From Verrucomicrobiales bacterium (lineage in GTDB: Bacteria; Verrucomicrobiota; Verrucomicrobiia; Verrucomicrobiales; V1-33), in NCBI GenBank assembly GCA_018003315.1, contig JAGNEJ010000049.1, forward strand, positions 1-36,543: a DNA stretch of 36,543 nucleotides, written 5' to 3'. A program made the translations under genes and the position numbers. Below, piece by piece: positions 5,824 through 15,798 of the stretch. The notes beneath the pieces were generated by a model. It worked only from the letters and a program-made list of their open reading frames with translations. It had not been told where the DNA came from and did no database searches. Numbering within the stretch: the stretch's first letter is position 1; every line of letters starts with the position of its first letter.

Positions 5824-8800
5824 TCAGGCCACCGGTGCCTGCGCCGCCGGCAGCGTGATGGATTCCGCCGTGGTCTCTGGTTCTTCCGCGGATTCCGGAC
5901 GATGTTCCGAGGCGATCAGGGTGTAGAAAACGGGAACGACAAAGAGCGTGAAGATCGTGCCGATGAACATGCCGGACACGAGCACGATCCCAATGCTGTT
6001 GCGGGCCTCGGCACCGGGACCCGAAACCAGGACGAGGGGGAAGTGTCCAAAAATCGTTGCCGCCGAGGCCATCAGAACCGGGCGCAGGCGAGTGAGGGAT
6101 GCTTCGCGGATGGCCTTTGCCCTGCTGTGTCCTCGCAGGCGCAGTTTGTTCGCGAACTCCACGATGAGGATTCCATTGCGCGCAATGAGTCCGACCAGAG
6201 TGATCAGGCCGACCTGCGAATAGATGTTGATGGACGTGAGGTCGAGATAAGTGAAGGCCAATGCACCGGACAGGGTCAGCGGCACCGAACCGAGCAGCAC
6301 AATGAGAGGGTCCCGAAAGCTGCGAAACTGTGCGGCGAGCACCAGATAGACCAGGAGAATCGCAAAGACGAACGTGACGACAAGGGCTGATCCTTCGGAT
6401 CGAATCTGCCGGGATTCGCCGGTGTAGTCGGTCCCAATGGATTCTCCACCCGCACTGCGTGCCGCGTTTTCCAGCACATCGAGGGCCGCTTCCTTGGTCC
6501 AGCCGGGAGCGACTCCGCCAAAAACGCGCACCGCGTTGCGCTGTTGAAACGTGTTGAGGCTGCGCGGGGAGTTTTTTGATTCGATCCTGACAAAAGATGA
6601 AATGGGCACCAGATCGCCCGCTGGGGTTTTGATGCGGAGGTCCAGCAGTGCCTCGGGCGTCGCCCGGGCTTGATCCTCGATCTGGGGAATCACTTTGTAA
6701 CTGCGGTCGAAGAAGTTGAAGCGATTGACATAACCGCCGCCGAGCAGAGTGCCCAACTCTCGCCCGACACTGGCCAGGTCCAGACCGAGATCGGCGATGC
6801 GTTCCCGGTCCACCACCACCCGTGCTTCGGGGCGGTCGATTTTCAGATCGGAGTCCACGTAGAGAAACTTTCCGCTCTTGAAGCCAGCGGCGATGGTTTG
6901 CTGGACAAGTGGGAGGAGATCCTCCACGGAGCCATTGGTCTGAAGCACCAATTCCACGTCGTGCTGGCCCGGAGTCGGCAGGGGTGGATTGAGCCGAGGA
7001 AAAACCCGCAGCCCCGGGATCCCGGAAGTTGTCGCGTAAACATCCCGGTACATTTCCTTGGTCGAACGGCTCCGCTGATCCCACGGCACTGTGTTGTAGC
7101 CTCCAAAGCCGCCCCAGTTCGTGGTCTGAGACCAGACACGATTGGCCTCCGGCAGGGCCAGCAGGGCCTTGATCAGCTCCAGCGATTGGCGGGCGGAGGC
7201 TTCAGGCGTGGAATCAGGCGCGGCTTCAAAAAACAAGCGGATGGCACTCTCATCCTCGACCGGAGCCAGCTCTTTGGAGGAACCGAGATAGAGCGGCACG
7301 GCTGCGGCCATGATGACCAGGGAGAGGAGGACGATCACGCCCCGGATTTGCAGCGCGCCGTCGAGCAGGCGGCCGTAGGCATTGCGCACCTTGTTGAACA
7401 ACCGATTCACCTGCCGGGTGAGCCAGGCCTCCTTCCCCTGGGCGTGGATCATGTGCGCACTGAGCATAGGCGAAAGCGTGAGCGCAACGAGACCGGAAAT
7501 GATGACGGTGCCTGCCAGAGTAATGGCGAATTCGAGGAACAGGGAGCCGGTGATTCCCCCCTGGAATGCGATGGGGGCGTACACGGTGGCCAGCGTGATG
7601 GTGAGGGCGATGATGGGGCCGACCAGTTCACGCGTCCCCTCAAGCGCCGCCTGGATCCGGGTTTTGCCCAGCCGGATGTGCCGTTCGATGTTTTCCACCA
7701 CGACGATGGCATCGTCCACGACCAGGCCGACGGAGAGGACGATGGCGAGGATGGTCAGGAGGTTGAGACTGAAGCTGCAGGCCAGCATGAGGACGCAGGC
7801 GCCCACGAGGGAAATGGGCATCGCAATGAGGGGGATCAATGCCGTGCGCAGCGAGCCGAGAAAGAGAAACACCGCGATGCCCACGATGATCATCGTTTCC
7901 ACCAGTGTTTTGGAGATTTCCTTCAAGGCATCGCGCATAAACTCGGTGCCATCGTAAACCAGGATCATGTTCATGCCCGCGGGCAGCGTTTTTTGAATGC
8001 GGTCCATCTCGGCGACCAGCCGTCCGTGGACCTCGATTTCGTTGGCACCGGGCAGCGGCCAGACGCCCAGGGAAACGCCATCGTGGGTGTTGTGCCGCGC
8101 GACAAATTGCAGGTCTTCGGCTCCAAGTTCGACGCGGGCGACGTCGCTCAGCCGCACCAGGGAACCCTCGCGCTCCGCCACAATGAGCCGGGCAAATTCA
8201 TCCCGGTCGTGAAGGTCCGTATCGGCCAACAGATTGATCTCCACTTCCTTTCCCTTGGTGCGTCCGACGGCGGCCAGGTAGTTGTTGCGCTGCAGTGCGC
8301 GATAAATGTCGCCGGGTGCGAGGTTGACCGCGGCGAGGCGGTCCTGGTTGATCCAGATGCGCATTGCCAGCGCCTGACCACCGCCGACGGTCACCCGCTG
8401 CACCCCTTCCACCGTGGCCAGTTGCGGCTGAATGTGCCGCGTCAGCCAGTCGGTGATCTGCGGGATGGTGCGTTCCTTGGAGTTGAAGTTGATGTAAAAC
8501 GCAGCATGCGGACGGTCCGCCCGCTGGATTTCAACCATCGGCGGTTCTGCTTCGGAAGGCAGTTCGGAGCGCACCTGCTGGAGACGGGCGGAAACCTCAG
8601 CCAAGGCGGCCGTGGCGTTGTAGTTGAGTTTCAAGCGCACCGTGACCACGCTGGAACCTGCCCGGCTGATGGACTCGACGTAATCGACTCCGCCGATCTG
8701 GGCAACGGCCTGCTCGATGGGATTGGTTAGAAATCCCCGGATCGTCTCCGCGCTGGCTCCGTAGTAGAGCGTGGTGATCACCACCGAGGAACTCTCCAGT

Positions 8801-8925
8801 TTCGGATACTGCTGCACCGGCAGGGATGTCGCCGCGCGCCAACCCATCAGAATGATGATGAAATTGACAACCAGGGCAAGGACCGGATGCCGGATGAAAA
8901 TGTCAGTGAAGGATCGGCCGCGCAT
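5824..8925 (-). CDS. RND multidrug efflux transporter, inner-membrane pump (HAE1/AcrB type)
   Basis: A 1033-residue proton-driven pump, full length for the AcrB/MexB family. The N terminus (FTDIFIRHPVLALVVNFIIILMG) is TM1, and the two halves each carry a large periplasmic loop. The TM4 proton-relay acid pair is present as VVDDAIVVVENIERH (Asp 404, Asp 405). In TM10 the family lysine (AcrB Lys940, GLSAKN) is Arg 916 here (GLIARNGILIVEFAN). Hydrophobic segments cluster at ~330-550 and ~860-1010. The final ~25 residues are a Glu/Thr-rich tail. It lies 20 nt after the membrane fusion protein gene in a tetR-MFP-RND operon. No TolC-like gene is present, so the outer-membrane channel must come from elsewhere. 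Substrate is not predictable, but the HAE1 type usually exports drugs, detergents or dyes. Confidence 0.95.
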   Translation of the reverse strand: MRGRSFTDIFIRHPVLALVVNFIIILMGWRAATSLPVQQYPKLESSSVVITTLYYGASAETIRGFLTNPIEQAVAQIGGVDYVESISRAGSSVVTVRLKLNYNATAALAEVSARLQQVRSELPSEAEPPMVEIQRADRPHAAFYINFNSKERTIPQITDWLTRHIQPQLATVEGVQRVTVGGGQALAMRIWINQDRLAAVNLAPGDIYRALQRNNYLAAVGRTKGKEVEINLLADTDLHDRDEFARLIVAEREGSLVRLSDVARVELGAEDLQFVARHNTHDGVSLGVWPLPGANEIEVHGRLVAEMDRIQKTLPAGMNMILVYDGTEFMRDALKEISKTLVETMIIVGIAVFLFLGSLRTALIPLIAMPISLVGACVLMLACSFSLNLLTILAIVLSVGLVVDDAIVVVENIERHIRLGKTRIQAALEGTRELVGPIIALTITLATVYAPIAFQGGITGSLFLEFAITLAGTVIISGLVALTLSPMLSAHMIHAQGKEAWLTRQVNRLFNKVRNAYGRLLDGALQIRGVIVLLSLVIMAAAVPLYLGSSKELAPVEDESAIRLFFEAAPDSTPEASARQSLELIKALLALPEANRVWSQTTNWGGFGGYNTVPWDQRSRSTKEMYRDVYATTSGIPGLRVFPRLNPPLPTPGQHDVELVLQTNGSVEDLLPLVQQTIAAGFKSGKFLYVDSDLKIDRPEARVVVDRERIADLGLDLASVGRELGTLLGGGYVNRFNFFDRSYKVIPQIEDQARATPEALLDLRIKTPAGDLVPISSFVRIESKNSPRSLNTFQQRNAVRVFGGVAPGWTKEAALDVLENAARSAGGESIGTDYTGESRQIRSEGSALVVTFVFAILLVYLVLAAQFRSFRDPLIVLLGSVPLTLSGALAFTYLDLTSINIYSQVGLITLVGLIARNGILIVEFANKLRLRGHSRAKAIREASLTRLRPVLMASAATIFGHFPLVLVSGPGAEARNSIGIVLVSGMFIGTIFTLFVVPVFYTLIASEHRPESAEEPETTAESITLPAAQAPVA

Positions 8926-8945
8926 CGCAAATGAGGGAAGCTGAA

Positions 8946-10067
8946 TCAGTGTTCACCCGCGTCCGATACGGCAGGCTGCTCCGGCGCTTCCGCCACCAGC
9001 ACGCCCTCGCGCAGCTTGAACGATCCGGTGGCGGCAATCCGTTCGCCGAATTTCAACCCCTGGGCGACGAAAACCATTTCGTTTTCCAGCGCCTCCACCT
9101 TGATCGGACGCAGCGAAGCACGCTCCTTTCCCTTGGCGTCCTTGGCCACCACAAAGACGAAATCCCCGTCAGCTCCCCGGCGCAAGGCACTGATGGGGAT
9201 GGCAGCCGCCTTCTCCGGACTTCCCACTGGAACCCGAACTCGCACGGCGGCCCCAGGCGCCAGGGCTGCCGCGTGATCGGCGACGTCGATCCGGGCCCGC
9301 ACCGCGATATTGCGCGTGTTTTCGTTCACGCGGGAGTCGAGGGCGACGATTCGTGCAGCAGCCTGCTGTGCCGTTACGCCCGCCACGATCGCAACAGAGT
9401 CACCGACCTTCAGTTGTCCGGCTGTCTCCTGGGTGACTTGGAAATCGACATGCACCGCGTCGGCAACTCCCTGGAGGGTGGTCAGTTCCGTGCCGGCTTC
9501 CAGATACTGTCCGCGATGCAAATCGCTCAACCCCACACGAGCCCGGAACGGCGCCCGGAGGGTTTTGCGCGCCATGACCGCACGGATGCCCTCGATGCGG
9601 GCCAGCGCCACGTCGCGCTGGGCACGCGCCTGGTCCAACTCCAATTCTGGAACCGCCTTCTCCGTGGAGAGTTTCTCCATCCGCTCCAGCGTGCTCCGCG
9701 CCAAAGCGGCCTGTGCTTCCTGGGCCTTGAGGTCCGCCTCCTCGACACTGATGTCGAGGGCCACCAGAATCGTGTCCGCTTCGACGATTGCCCCCGGAAC
9801 CAATGAAACCGAGTGCACCGTCCCGGGCAGTTCGTTTTTCAGGACAATCGATTGGAGGGCTCTGACGGTGCCGGTCGTCGTGCTGTAACGATGGAATTCA
9901 CGCTCCTCCACCGCCGCAATCCGCAGCGATTCGACTCGCTCCGGAATATGCGCGGTCGCCTCGGCAGCCTTTTTCTTGGCATGCGATTTCCATGCCCACA
10001 GGCCGGAAAACACGGTCCCCACCAGCACGATCAGAGAAATGGATGCCAGCCAGCGGCGCAGGTTCAT
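8946..10067 (-). CDS. RND efflux periplasmic adaptor (membrane fusion protein, HlyD/AcrA family)
   Basis: A 373-residue adaptor anchored by one N-terminal hydrophobic segment (about residues 9-27, ISLIVLVGTVFSGLWAW). The chain then follows the family order. First is a barrel-sandwich half (TTTGTVRALQSIVLKNELPGTV...VEADTILVALD), then a short alpha-hairpin (AQEAQAALARSTLERMEKL...ELDQARAQRDVALARI). The second lipoyl half follows with LRAPFRARVGL, then the beta-barrel and membrane-proximal domains. It bridges the RND pump to an outer-membrane channel. The hairpin is short, as in MexJK/BesA-type adaptors. It starts 73 nt after tetR stops and ends 20 nt before the pump gene starts, so the three form one operon. 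Confidence 0.93.
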   Translation of the reverse strand: MNLRRWLASISLIVLVGTVFSGLWAWKSHAKKKAAEATAHIPERVESLRIAAVEEREFHRYSTTTGTVRALQSIVLKNELPGTVHSVSLVPGAIVEADTILVALDISVEEADLKAQEAQAALARSTLERMEKLSTEKAVPELELDQARAQRDVALARIEGIRAVMARKTLRAPFRARVGLSDLHRGQYLEAGTELTTLQGVADAVHVDFQVTQETAGQLKVGDSVAIVAGVTAQQAAARIVALDSRVNENTRNIAVRARIDVADHAAALAPGAAVRVRVPVGSPEKAAAIPISALRRGADGDFVFVVAKDAKGKERASLRPIKVEALENEMVFVAQGLKFGERIAATGSFKLREGVLVAEAPEQPAVSDAGEH

Positions 10068-10140
10068 GGAATAGCAGTTTTTTGGGGGTGGAGAATGCTC
10101 AGGATGAAAGCGCGATGGTGAGTAAAACGGAGCCTGCGAA

Positions 10141-10761
10141 TCATGCGGTGGTTCGAGTGCCCTCAGGTGCCTTGGGAGCAGGCTTTCCCGGCTTCGGCAT
10201 GGCGCAGTGATCCTTGAGCACCTTTCCCAGTGCGCGATGCACGCGTTTCAACATGGCGTAGTCCAGATCGGAAATGTGCAGGGCCCAGTGCAGCCACATT
10301 CCGTCAAAGGCGGCGCCGATCATTTCGCTGACGCCCTCGGGAAGTCCGTCTTCTCTCAGAAAACGGTAGAGTTCCTCATACGTCTCCCTGACCGGGCGCA
10401 CCAGCGACTGGTTGTGCATCAGGGCTACCAGCACGGAAGAGAATCCGCGGCGCATTTCCTCCGCCCATGAATCCGGCTCCATGAAACCGCTGTGCAGCAG
10501 CGCCCGAGCCATGCGTCCAGGACCTTCGGATGTTTGGTGATAGGCTCGCATGTAAAATTCCCGCCAGCGCCGCGCGCTCCGCTCCACCATCGCCCCGATC
10601 AACTGGTCCTTGCTCCAAAAATGGTGCAGGACGCCGCCCTTGCTGATGCCTGCTTCGAGCGCAATCGCGTCGAAGGTGAGGCGGGAAATCCCGCAACTCA
10701 ATGCCACTTCCTCCGCTGCATCCAGCAGGCGTTCCTTGAGGTCGGATCGATGGAGCGTCAT
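10141..10761 (-). CDS. TetR-family transcriptional repressor of the RND operon
   Basis: A 206-residue regulator. The N-terminal helix-turn-helix is clear: AAEEVALSCGISRLTFDAIALEAGISKGGVLHHFWSKDQLI, matching the TetR pattern with the recognition helix ISKGGVLHHF. The C-terminal two-thirds is an all-helical ligand-binding/dimerisation domain resembling TetR types next to efflux pumps. The frame is open upstream to 10896, but ATG 10761 starts the HTH at the usual distance and has a GAGGG Shine-Dalgarno-like sequence 7 nt upstream. It is first in the operon with the MFP and RND genes and so probably represses itself and the pump through the palindrome at 10798-10815. The inducer is unknown. The tail is Pro/Lys-rich. 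Confidence 0.92.
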   Translation of the reverse strand: MTLHRSDLKERLLDAAEEVALSCGISRLTFDAIALEAGISKGGVLHHFWSKDQLIGAMVERSARRWREFYMRAYHQTSEGPGRMARALLHSGFMEPDSWAEEMRRGFSSVLVALMHNQSLVRPVRETYEELYRFLREDGLPEGVSEMIGAAFDGMWLHWALHISDLDYAMLKRVHRALGKVLKDHCAMPKPGKPAPKAPEGTRTTA

Positions 10762-13471: not shown

Positions 13472-15565
13472 TCAGCGGGTGAGCGGGATGAGCGGCCGCG
13501 TCAGGCGTTTCCAGAAGCCGTCGAGGTGGTCAGAAAGCACCAGGAAGATTTCATCCGCCGGCGGGAGGCCTTCGTTGGCGTGTTCGGAGGCATGGAGCAG
13601 TTCATCCGCCGCGTAGAGCGTGGCCAGCGAATCCTGGTCGAGACTGACAATGTCGAGGTAGCGGCCTTTGGCTTCGGCAATCTGGTCCGCGGCCAACCAT
13701 TGTTGGAGGTCGGCGGGCGACTGTTGGGCGGAAAAAACGGTGAGCCGCTGGCGGTTTCCATTGCCGGAGCGAAGCTGGGTTTCCCGGACATGCGCCGCGA
13801 GGGCCTTCCAGTAGGCAACATCCTCGGCAGGTTCCGAGCCGAAAAAGATTTCGCCGTCCGGAGTGTGCCAGACGAGGGCAGCCGGGCCGTTGAAGCCCGG
13901 GATGGCCAGGTACTCCACCCTGACAACTGCAAGCCGCCGCCCGCCGGTCTCCAGCAGATGGCTGAAGATGTCCTGGTCGATGCGCAGGGGCTTGGCATGC
14001 AGCAGGCGCTGCCGCAGCGCGTGGAATTTTTCTTCCACCGGGTGCAGCTGCGGTGCCGGTGCGCCGGTGACTGGCACGGTGCCGCCAGACGCCAGGGAAT
14101 GCGGCGGGTCGGCCAGCACCACTCCCGAAGCGGAAGCCGGACGCTCCGGCGCGATGGCCTCAGTGAATTTCCGGCCCAGGCGCAGCTTTTCGAGCATGCT
14201 CTTGAGTTGCTGGAACGAGGTGCCACCCACCGGCATGGGGGCGGAAGCCGCGGGATCGGCTCCGGGCGGGGTCAGCGGCGGTTCGGTTGGTCCACCAGAG
14301 GCTTCGAAAAGCGGGGCATCTTCGAGGCGCAGCGGGGCAACATCCGATTTTCCGGCCGCCCGTTCCGCTTCCGTTTCCTCCCAGAGGCGCGCGGCGTGGC
14401 GCAGCAGGGAACGTGCAGAAAATACCCGGCCTGACTCCTTGGCCATCAGCTCGGGAAGCCGCAGGCGGTCGAGAAACGATTCCCCCTGCACCACATCGAC
14501 CCCGGCATGGTGCAGCCGGTGGCGCAGCAGGGCGTCCGCTTCACTCCGGGAGAGGCCCTCCAAATGGACCTGATCACCGCTCAGCCGATCCTCCAGGGCG
14601 CTCGGTAAAAACTTTTGGAATACATTGGCCCAGAGGTCCTGATTGACACTGAGCACGATGAGAGCGTGAGGCTGCAGGCGGCGCAATTCACTCAAAATGC
14701 CGGCTAGCTTCACGGGCATTTCAGTGCCCCCCTGGATGCGGTCGAGGTGGTCCACCAGAAAGACCACCGGCCGGCAAAGCCCGGCGAGGCGACCCAGCTC
14801 CATCAGTCGATCCTTGAAATAGGGTTCATCCAGCATCGGTGCCTGCACCAAGCTGAGCCCTCCGCTCTGCACCGCAGGCGCATGTCCCTGCTGAACGGCC
14901 CAGCGCAGCCCTGCAAACCGAACCTCCGGCCCGTCCGCAATGCCCTGGGCATACCCGCACAGCATCCGCAACCACCCGGCGGCGGCGGATTCTTCCAGTC
15001 CACCTTCTCGTGCCAGCAACTGGCTGGCAGCCGGCAAAAGCCGCTCAAAATGCTCGGCAAACCACCGCGCCACCGGCTGCTTGGAGTCGGAAAAGTCAAA
15101 CAACTGAAAATGACGCGTTTCCAATGCCCCCAAGGCGGCTTCGGGATTGGCGCAGGGAATTCGCCCTTGCCGGATCAATTCTTGGTTGATCCGTGCAAAC
15201 AAATGTCGGGTCAGGACATCCAGCAGACTCCCCTGCCCTGCACCGGAGGGGCTTGCGTGCAGCTGCTCCAGCACCTGCCAGAACAATCCCGCCCATTTCA
15301 GATCCCGGTCGGCATCGTATTCCACGGCGACGACAAATGCCCGACTGCTCTGGCGCTGCCGGACCAGTTCCAGGAGGTGGGATTTTCCAAATCCCGCCCG
15401 CGGTGCCTTCAGCAACACCACCCGTCCCGCCAAATCCGGACCGGCTCCCACCCGGTCCAACAACCGCTGAAACTGCTCCAACGCCACCGCATGCAGCGGG
15501 AACTCCGTAGCCGCGACCGGGTATCCATCCGGATAAATATCTGAAGAAAAAGGGTTCCAAACCAT
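13472..15565 (-). CDS. Orphan AAA/STAND-like P-loop ATPase with unassigned C-terminal domain
   Basis: I do not recognise a named family. The 697-residue protein has no signal peptide or membrane segment. Walker A is APRAGFGKS (residues 54-62). Walker B is VVFLVDHLD (Asp 272, with Asp 275 in place of the more usual adjacent Glu). A polar sensor-like Asn 308 follows in VLSVNQD, and Arg 327 in EDRLSG could be a finger residue. Together these resemble ORC/STAND-type ATPases. A helical lid spans ~335-410, then a Pro/Ala-rich linker ~415-515. A separate C-terminal alpha/beta domain (~525-697) contains VVRVEYLAIPGFNGPAALVWHTPDGEIFFGSEP-type strands. The start ATG 15565 has no Shine-Dalgarno. It is preceded by an AT-rich leader. 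Neighbours (HemW-like, korA) give no functional hint. Confidence 0.75.
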   Translation of the reverse strand: MVWNPFSSDIYPDGYPVAATEFPLHAVALEQFQRLLDRVGAGPDLAGRVVLLKAPRAGFGKSHLLELVRQRQSSRAFVVAVEYDADRDLKWAGLFWQVLEQLHASPSGAGQGSLLDVLTRHLFARINQELIRQGRIPCANPEAALGALETRHFQLFDFSDSKQPVARWFAEHFERLLPAASQLLAREGGLEESAAAGWLRMLCGYAQGIADGPEVRFAGLRWAVQQGHAPAVQSGGLSLVQAPMLDEPYFKDRLMELGRLAGLCRPVVFLVDHLDRIQGGTEMPVKLAGILSELRRLQPHALIVLSVNQDLWANVFQKFLPSALEDRLSGDQVHLEGLSRSEADALLRHRLHHAGVDVVQGESFLDRLRLPELMAKESGRVFSARSLLRHAARLWEETEAERAAGKSDVAPLRLEDAPLFEASGGPTEPPLTPPGADPAASAPMPVGGTSFQQLKSMLEKLRLGRKFTEAIAPERPASASGVVLADPPHSLASGGTVPVTGAPAPQLHPVEEKFHALRQRLLHAKPLRIDQDIFSHLLETGGRRLAVVRVEYLAIPGFNGPAALVWHTPDGEIFFGSEPAEDVAYWKALAAHVRETQLRSGNGNRQRLTVFSAQQSPADLQQWLAADQIAEAKGRYLDIVSLDQDSLATLYAADELLHASEHANEGLPPADEIFLVLSDHLDGFWKRLTRPLIPLTR

Positions 15566-15798
15566 TGGTAATCAGCAATGTGAGCGCTAAATTTCTCAGA
15601 CACTACTTAATCACCACTTTATTGAAATTGCAATAAATTTCACAAACGAATTGCATTTTCCAGAACAATTTCTTTCAACAACACCCTCCAGAACCAACAA
15701 GCTCCATTCATGCCATGCACCCTTACTTGAAGGCGTGCATTTCAACATAACACATTGTTCTTCAGTGAATCCCAACCGTTTTTCCGTTTGAATCAGAA
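15566..15798. promoter_or_regulatory. AT-rich leader of the ATPase gene with inverted repeat
   Basis: This 233-nt gap is visibly poorer in G+C than anything around it. It carries TGAAATT-GCAATA-AATTTCA at 15623-15642, an inverted repeat with 7-bp arms, 58-77 nt upstream of the ATPase start codon. Several overlapping ATTG/CAAT pieces lie near it. A convincing -35/-10 pair was not found. The low G+C would suit a regulated promoter or binding of a nucleoid protein, or a recent junction. No reading frame of note occurs in it. Confidence 0.4.

Follow-up and report, generated by a model that had tools for sequence, protein, structure and literature searches.

A stand-alone Orc/Cdc6-type AAA+ ATPase with a putative inactive REase-like domain in Verrucomicrobiales

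The window (the whole stretch of 36,543 nucleotides analysed here) carries at 13472..15565 on the minus strand a gene for a 697-residue orphan protein. With roughly an even chance of being right, we read this protein as an Orc/Cdc6-type AAA+ ATPase with a dead REase-like domain, encoded by a stand-alone gene, inherited vertically and having a housekeeping role at DNA; its homologues include the ATPase subunits found in FtsK-linked, capture-type systems. The proteins closest to it form the ATPase part of a machine predicted to pump DNA against invaders, so the orphan appears to be kin to a defence component but to do an ordinary cellular job now.

The literature found places Orc/Cdc6-type ATPases that carry dead REase domains in mobile systems, which are predicted, without experiments, to act against invaders (PMC10853773). 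A core, motor-less version across the whole order, including the isolated genera Luteolibacter and Verrucomicrobium, lets the ATPase module's own role be asked about, and the orphan branch lets one ask whether defence parts became housekeeping parts or the reverse. A more specific proposal is made tentatively and may well be wrong: that the orphan is the core, stand-alone branch of a predicted anti-invader ATPase lineage in Verrucomicrobiales, in which an active Orc/Cdc6 AAA+ with a dead nuclease domain does a DNA-linked job together with a membrane-tethered coiled-coil partner. If true, components would have passed, in either direction, between defence machinery and the core biology of the chromosome or cell cycle.

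The gene and its ATPase module

The initial annotation had given an open reading frame without its strand. The frame was found at the coordinates above on the minus strand (ATG 15565–15563, stop 13474–13472), and the plus strand in the same frame is interrupted by stops. The longest open frame among 60 first-order Markov windows of equal length was 558 codons, compared with 697 residues for the ORF. The decisive evidence that the gene is real came from the orthologues, which have the same N-terminus (MVWNPFSSD in the window's protein, with the NPF start motif common to the orthologues) and are conserved over the full length. The ORF is a real, fast-evolving gene, as judged from a within-genus identity of 47% against 77% for the adjacent protein, which reads as KorA-like.

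An alignment of 57 full-length relatives with a mean column identity of 30% was used for AlphaFold2 modelling, which gave a pLDDT of 84 and a pTM of 0.76 for the whole protein. The architecture consists of an AAA+ ATPase (residues ~1–410), a disordered linker (~411–505) and a compact alpha/beta domain (~506–690).

The ATPase module, of Orc/Cdc6-STAND type (residues 1–410; 14336..15565, minus strand), was delimited using the AlphaFold2 model, AAA+ matches in Foldseek and AAA_16/NACHT matches in the orthologues. The Walker A motif APRAGFGKSHL (residues 54–64; 15374..15406, minus strand) has R56, A57, G58, G60, K61, H63 and L64 invariant in 57 of 57 sequences, as are D272 and D275 of the Walker B motif VVFLVDHLD (residues 267–275; 14741..14767, minus strand) and the sensor-1 residue Asn308 (14642..14644, minus strand). 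Two further residues, invariant in all 57, are the candidate arginine finger Arg327 (14585..14587, minus strand), placed from the AlphaFold2 model just before strand 331–334, and the candidate sensor-2 residue Arg385 (14411..14413, minus strand) in the helical bundle. D310, W312, P321, D326 and R389 are also invariant in the 57-row alignment. The motifs quoted initially (APRAGFGKS, VDHLD, Asn308 and EDRLSG with Arg327) are thus all present, with their key residues unchanged in 57 of 57. Because this invariance is seen despite the mean column identity of 30%, the ATPase site, sensor 1, the probable arginine finger and the probable sensor 2 are under selection, and on these motifs the protein should be an active AAA+ ATPase of the oligomer type. 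It would oligomerize through Arg327, and would bind and hydrolyse ATP as a switch or loader. In the model a large helical insert sits between strand 2 (77–81) and the Walker B strand (267–271), and the C-terminal helical bundle of the module comprises residues 340–403.

No family in Pfam, NCBIfam, PADLOC or PHROGs was matched above cut-off by the 697-residue protein; Pfam NACHT scored 17.8 bits (cut-off 26.7). In the orthologue scan (E ≤ 0.01) AAA_16 was matched in 20 of 57 and NACHT in eight of 57. The P-loop module is weakly similar in sequence to the NACHT/AAA_16/nSTAND NTPases of Pfam, but the protein lies below the curated cut-off and is without recognized sensor repeats or an effector domain. 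Searches of the PDB sequences with the single protein and with profiles gave no match to a solved structure. Searching the PDB with the whole model using Foldseek placed AAA+ proteins on top (p97, HslU and BrxC, 9zdx_A), all with low TM-scores. The proposed ORC/STAND-like character gained support from the AAA_16/NACHT matches, the best in Pfam although weak, from the order of elements in the AlphaFold model and from relatives that fit published Orc/CDC6 ATPases.

That HslU and BrxC rank among the top AAA+ matches would suit a protein-remodelling or scaffolding AAA+ (ClpX/HslU-like or BrxC-like) acting on proteins, with the C-terminal domain as an adaptor-binding module. We consider this very improbable, as the TM-scores to HslU and BrxC are low (about 0.2) and the homologues fused to DNA pumps point to DNA instead. 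The BrxC (DUF6079)/DUF499 ATPases of BREX and related systems (PMC12839542) do resemble the orphan in combining an AAA+ module of the Orc/Cdc6 clade with further domains at the C-terminus, one of them alpha+beta, and 9zdx_A is among its Foldseek matches. They differ in that neither Pfam nor PADLOC matches the orphan to BrxC, no BREX genes recur beside it and its C-terminal domain order is unlike the published one. By analogy with the DNA-pump-linked homologues the orphan most likely acts on DNA, as an AAA+ switch or loader in which a dead REase-like domain serves for binding.

The C-terminal domain and the FtsK-linked relatives

The low-complexity Pro/Ala linker (residues 411–505; 14051..14335, minus strand) varies in length among the orthologues and has low pLDDT in the model, below 50 at 421–448 and 462–501. 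The C-terminal domain follows (residues 506–690; 13496..14050, minus strand) and was also modelled alone with its own alignment, giving a pLDDT of 94 and the element order H H E E E H E H E H H. The linker and separate alpha/beta domain described in the initial annotation are therefore borne out by AlphaFold2. In the model this order fits the alpha-beta-beta-beta-alpha-beta core of the PD-(D/E)XK-like fold. All Foldseek matches of the domain were weak, none falling below an E value of 1e-3 in the PDB or the viral library. Those in the PDB include recurrent REase-like proteins (Can2, AF1548 and Mus81, the entries of which we take to have an REase-like fold), and those in the viral library include proteins named restriction endonuclease and PD-(D/E)XK nuclease. 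Column counts over strands 549–553, 563–568 and 571–575 showed no conserved D...(D/E)xK site. Membership of Mrr_cat or DUF4143 was rejected, as the hhalign probability was <1% and no better than that of a reversed control.

The orphan protein matches the N-terminal half of the FtsK-linked proteins over its whole length except the linker. Profile comparison of the two groups using hhalign gave a probability of 100% and an E value of 9.5e-46 over 554 columns, within the N-terminal ~608 residues of the linked proteins; the C-terminal domains alone gave 98.9% and 2e-17. The whole-length match is thus to a described, experimentally uncharacterized architecture, and not to a characterized family. 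In the linked proteins, three from within the order (L051–L053) and five from several small genomes of family f8 (L160–L164), an FtsK/SpoIIIE motor is fused to the homologue or encoded next to it. They carry FtsK_SpoIIIE, with FtsK_alpha in the three of three motor proteins scanned. A RecB/Cas4-type nuclease motif (of the type GRxD...DYK...QLxxYA) was present in four of the eight FtsK-linked proteins scanned and missing from L051 and L164. Their PADLOC matches were to Cas4, SspH and mad8. One member of the FtsK-linked clade (L054) had no motor visible among its flanking genes. Most FtsK-linked homologues are preceded by a gene of ~240 codons, the product of which reads as a winged-helix type; the one scanned had no Pfam match.

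These relatives were set beside the published description of neighbourhoods comprising an Orc/CDC6 ATPase with an inactive REase, an active REase, HerA/FtsK, a wHTH and optionally a protein with 2–4 wHTH, which are predicted to be anti-invader 'HerA/FtsK capture' systems (PMC10853773; NAR 2024). The FtsK-linked relatives appear to fit this class. On the strand order, the weak Foldseek matches and the published architecture, and because the homologous FtsK-linked proteins fit the capture organization, the orphan's C-terminal domain is most likely the catalytically dead REase-like domain of capture-type ATPases. If the fold is indeed REase-like, the unconserved catalytic residues imply a domain without nuclease activity, which would then serve to grip DNA or a partner protein instead of cutting. 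The C-terminal half, which the initial annotation could not assign, has thus gained a probable identity as a dead REase-like domain, while the idea of an obvious new effector lost ground because no nuclease site is conserved.

The orphan itself was not filed as a capture system. It probably shares with the capture ATPase (PMC10853773) a core made of an Orc/Cdc6-like AAA+ module followed by a dead REase-like domain. However, it is without an FtsK/HerA motor, an active REase, a wHTH and a nearby multi-wHTH gene, and its Walker B motif is DxxD rather than DxxE. Furthermore, the capture system is mobile and sporadic, whereas the orphan is core in the order (38 of 57 relatives), with a tree largely following families. 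It was excluded on motor, active nuclease, wHTH and mobility, and with the first three missing it is not a complete defence system. Likeness to the SspH/DndH and mad8 translocases is confined to the linked relatives, whose FtsK motor matches SspH and mad8; the orphan protein has no such motor.

Three outlying proteins were noted. A 'Hypothetical protein' on a plasmid of Methylosinus trichosporium OB3b (L171:9094-9774) is similar to the FtsK-linked proteins in their C-terminal-domain part only (27.5%, E = 2e-13); lying beside IS6 elements, it is a probable remnant of an FtsK-linked system in Alphaproteobacteria. An AAA ATPase on a Synechococcus elongatus plasmid (L172:5515-9481) is weakly like the FtsK-linked ATPase (25.8%, E = 5e-4) and is followed by TIR-domain and macro-domain genes, with parA/parB adjoining. 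A very divergent homologue of 648 residues (L165:9209-11155; G194, family f8) occurs in a genome that also has an FtsK-fused one.

Distribution and neighbourhood

The gene was found in 38 of the 57 sampled relatives, usually as a single orphan copy, with four of the 57 carrying a separate FtsK-type paralogue in addition. One genus with small genomes, probably Akkermansia, was without it in 13 of 13 sampled members. Scanning GTDB gave 80 named loci, all titled Verrucomicrobia and mostly from Verrucomicrobiaceae, Akkermansiaceae, Prosthecobacter, Luteolibacter and Verrucomicrobium. When the whole phylum was sampled, the order contained all matches apart from FtsK-type proteins and weak relatives in f8, a family of the same class, and a single marginal one in f15. 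In the unrooted maximum-likelihood tree families f2 and f4 each formed one clade, 10 of 11 f1 sequences grouped together and f3 needed four changes; the FtsK-type proteins formed a separate clade with 100/100 support. The gene is probably inherited vertically, and it is near-universal in the sampled Verrucomicrobiales outside the one genus.

The neighbours of the orphan genes are variable across species and mostly metabolic, in agreement with the lack of functional neighbours observed initially. No conserved motor gene was found beside the orphan in ~80 loci, and no active REase or wHTH was found in the protein or recurred in its neighbourhoods. PADLOC matches near the orphan genes were to generic ATPases and kinases (ABC-type 'mad3/mad8' and the kinase 'PD-T4-6'). 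Defence-island status was rejected, as the same kinds of PADLOC match occurred in randomly drawn genes of the two genomes that formed the control. The defence-type link raised in the initial annotation therefore holds for the FtsK-linked sister clade only; the orphan genes showed no linkage beyond the random control.

These results bear on whether the orphan is a stand-alone anti-invader sensor or ATPase, recognizing invading DNA and recruiting a nuclease or FtsK encoded elsewhere. The resemblance of the sister clade to a predicted defence system would favour such a role, as would evolution faster than that of a metabolic neighbour. It is nevertheless unlikely given a near-universal gene, usually in a single orphan copy, with a tree that largely tracks families, and given that surrounding defence genes do not exceed the random control. 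In addition, no copy of the protein was found in the phage or plasmid collections, and only one of 2.9 million viral contigs carried a match.

The preferred reading, a housekeeping role at DNA, could involve a membrane-anchored coiled-coil protein. The most recurrent neighbour is a gene for a protein of ~180 residues, always divergent from the ATPase gene, at 13 loci (13 relatives of three families) and often followed by a HAD hydrolase gene. Its product reads as a coiled-coil protein with a single membrane segment predicted at the N-terminus. Among the 57 relatives both genes were present in 36, the ATPase gene only in two, the coiled-coil gene only in four and neither in 15; of these 15, 13 belong to the single small-genome genus. 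In family f2 both genes were present in nine of nine tested carriers. The co-occurrence mostly reflects that both genes are near-universal. The window's own genome has the coiled-coil gene on another contig (G000:C120:49055-49555; L166).

The coiled-coil protein (e.g. L166 and L042:7434-7976) is itself near-universal among the sampled Verrucomicrobiales except for one genus. It contains a conserved stretch, ARAEKxMxxxAPGFAxAWExAK, and matches no Pfam family above cut-off.

The AT-rich leader

The gene is preceded by a 233 bp leader (15566..15798, minus strand) towards the upstream radical-SAM gene. Its GC content is 38%, compared with 53–64% for intergenic stretches elsewhere in the window. 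At 46 out of 48 loci, a set that includes one FtsK-linked relative (L053), the upstream gap had a higher AT content than the gaps before other genes, with a mean difference of 8.4 points. The AT-rich leader remarked on initially is thus confirmed and is conserved in kind.

A TTGCAA element (15628..15633, minus strand), 68 nt before the ATG and common to other leaders of the family, is a weak candidate for a −35 box. TTGCAA was present in 14 of 54 leaders against 20 of 210 GC-matched controls, and an A-tract with TTGCA in seven of 54 against none of 594 controls. As some leaders share TTGCAA preceded by an A-tract, the leader is read as the probable promoter region of the gene itself.

The leader, unusual in its AT-richness and conserved in kind, together with the divergent gene pair of 13 relatives, might instead suggest an ATP-dependent regulator of gene expression (an Orc/STAND-like transcription factor) controlling its own leader and the divergent coiled-coil gene. 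This seems quite unlikely, as no wHTH or other known DNA-binding domain was found in the protein and the enriched leader words come mainly from one related subset. A regulatory word shared by the leaders was rejected accordingly, the top words TGTGGAAA and AAACTTACT being mainly from one Prosthecobacter-like subset. A replication origin, to which the conserved AT-richness of the leader had pointed, was also rejected, the DnaA box TTATCCACA being present in none of 54 leaders, and GC-skew samples of two single-contig relatives place the gene off both skew turning points. Scans for sigma-70 and terminator consensus sequences around the gene gave no match, nor did Rfam in the window.

Elsewhere in the window the minus strand at 5824–10761 reads by eye as an RND-type efflux pump (1033 residues), a membrane-fusion protein and a TetR-like regulator.
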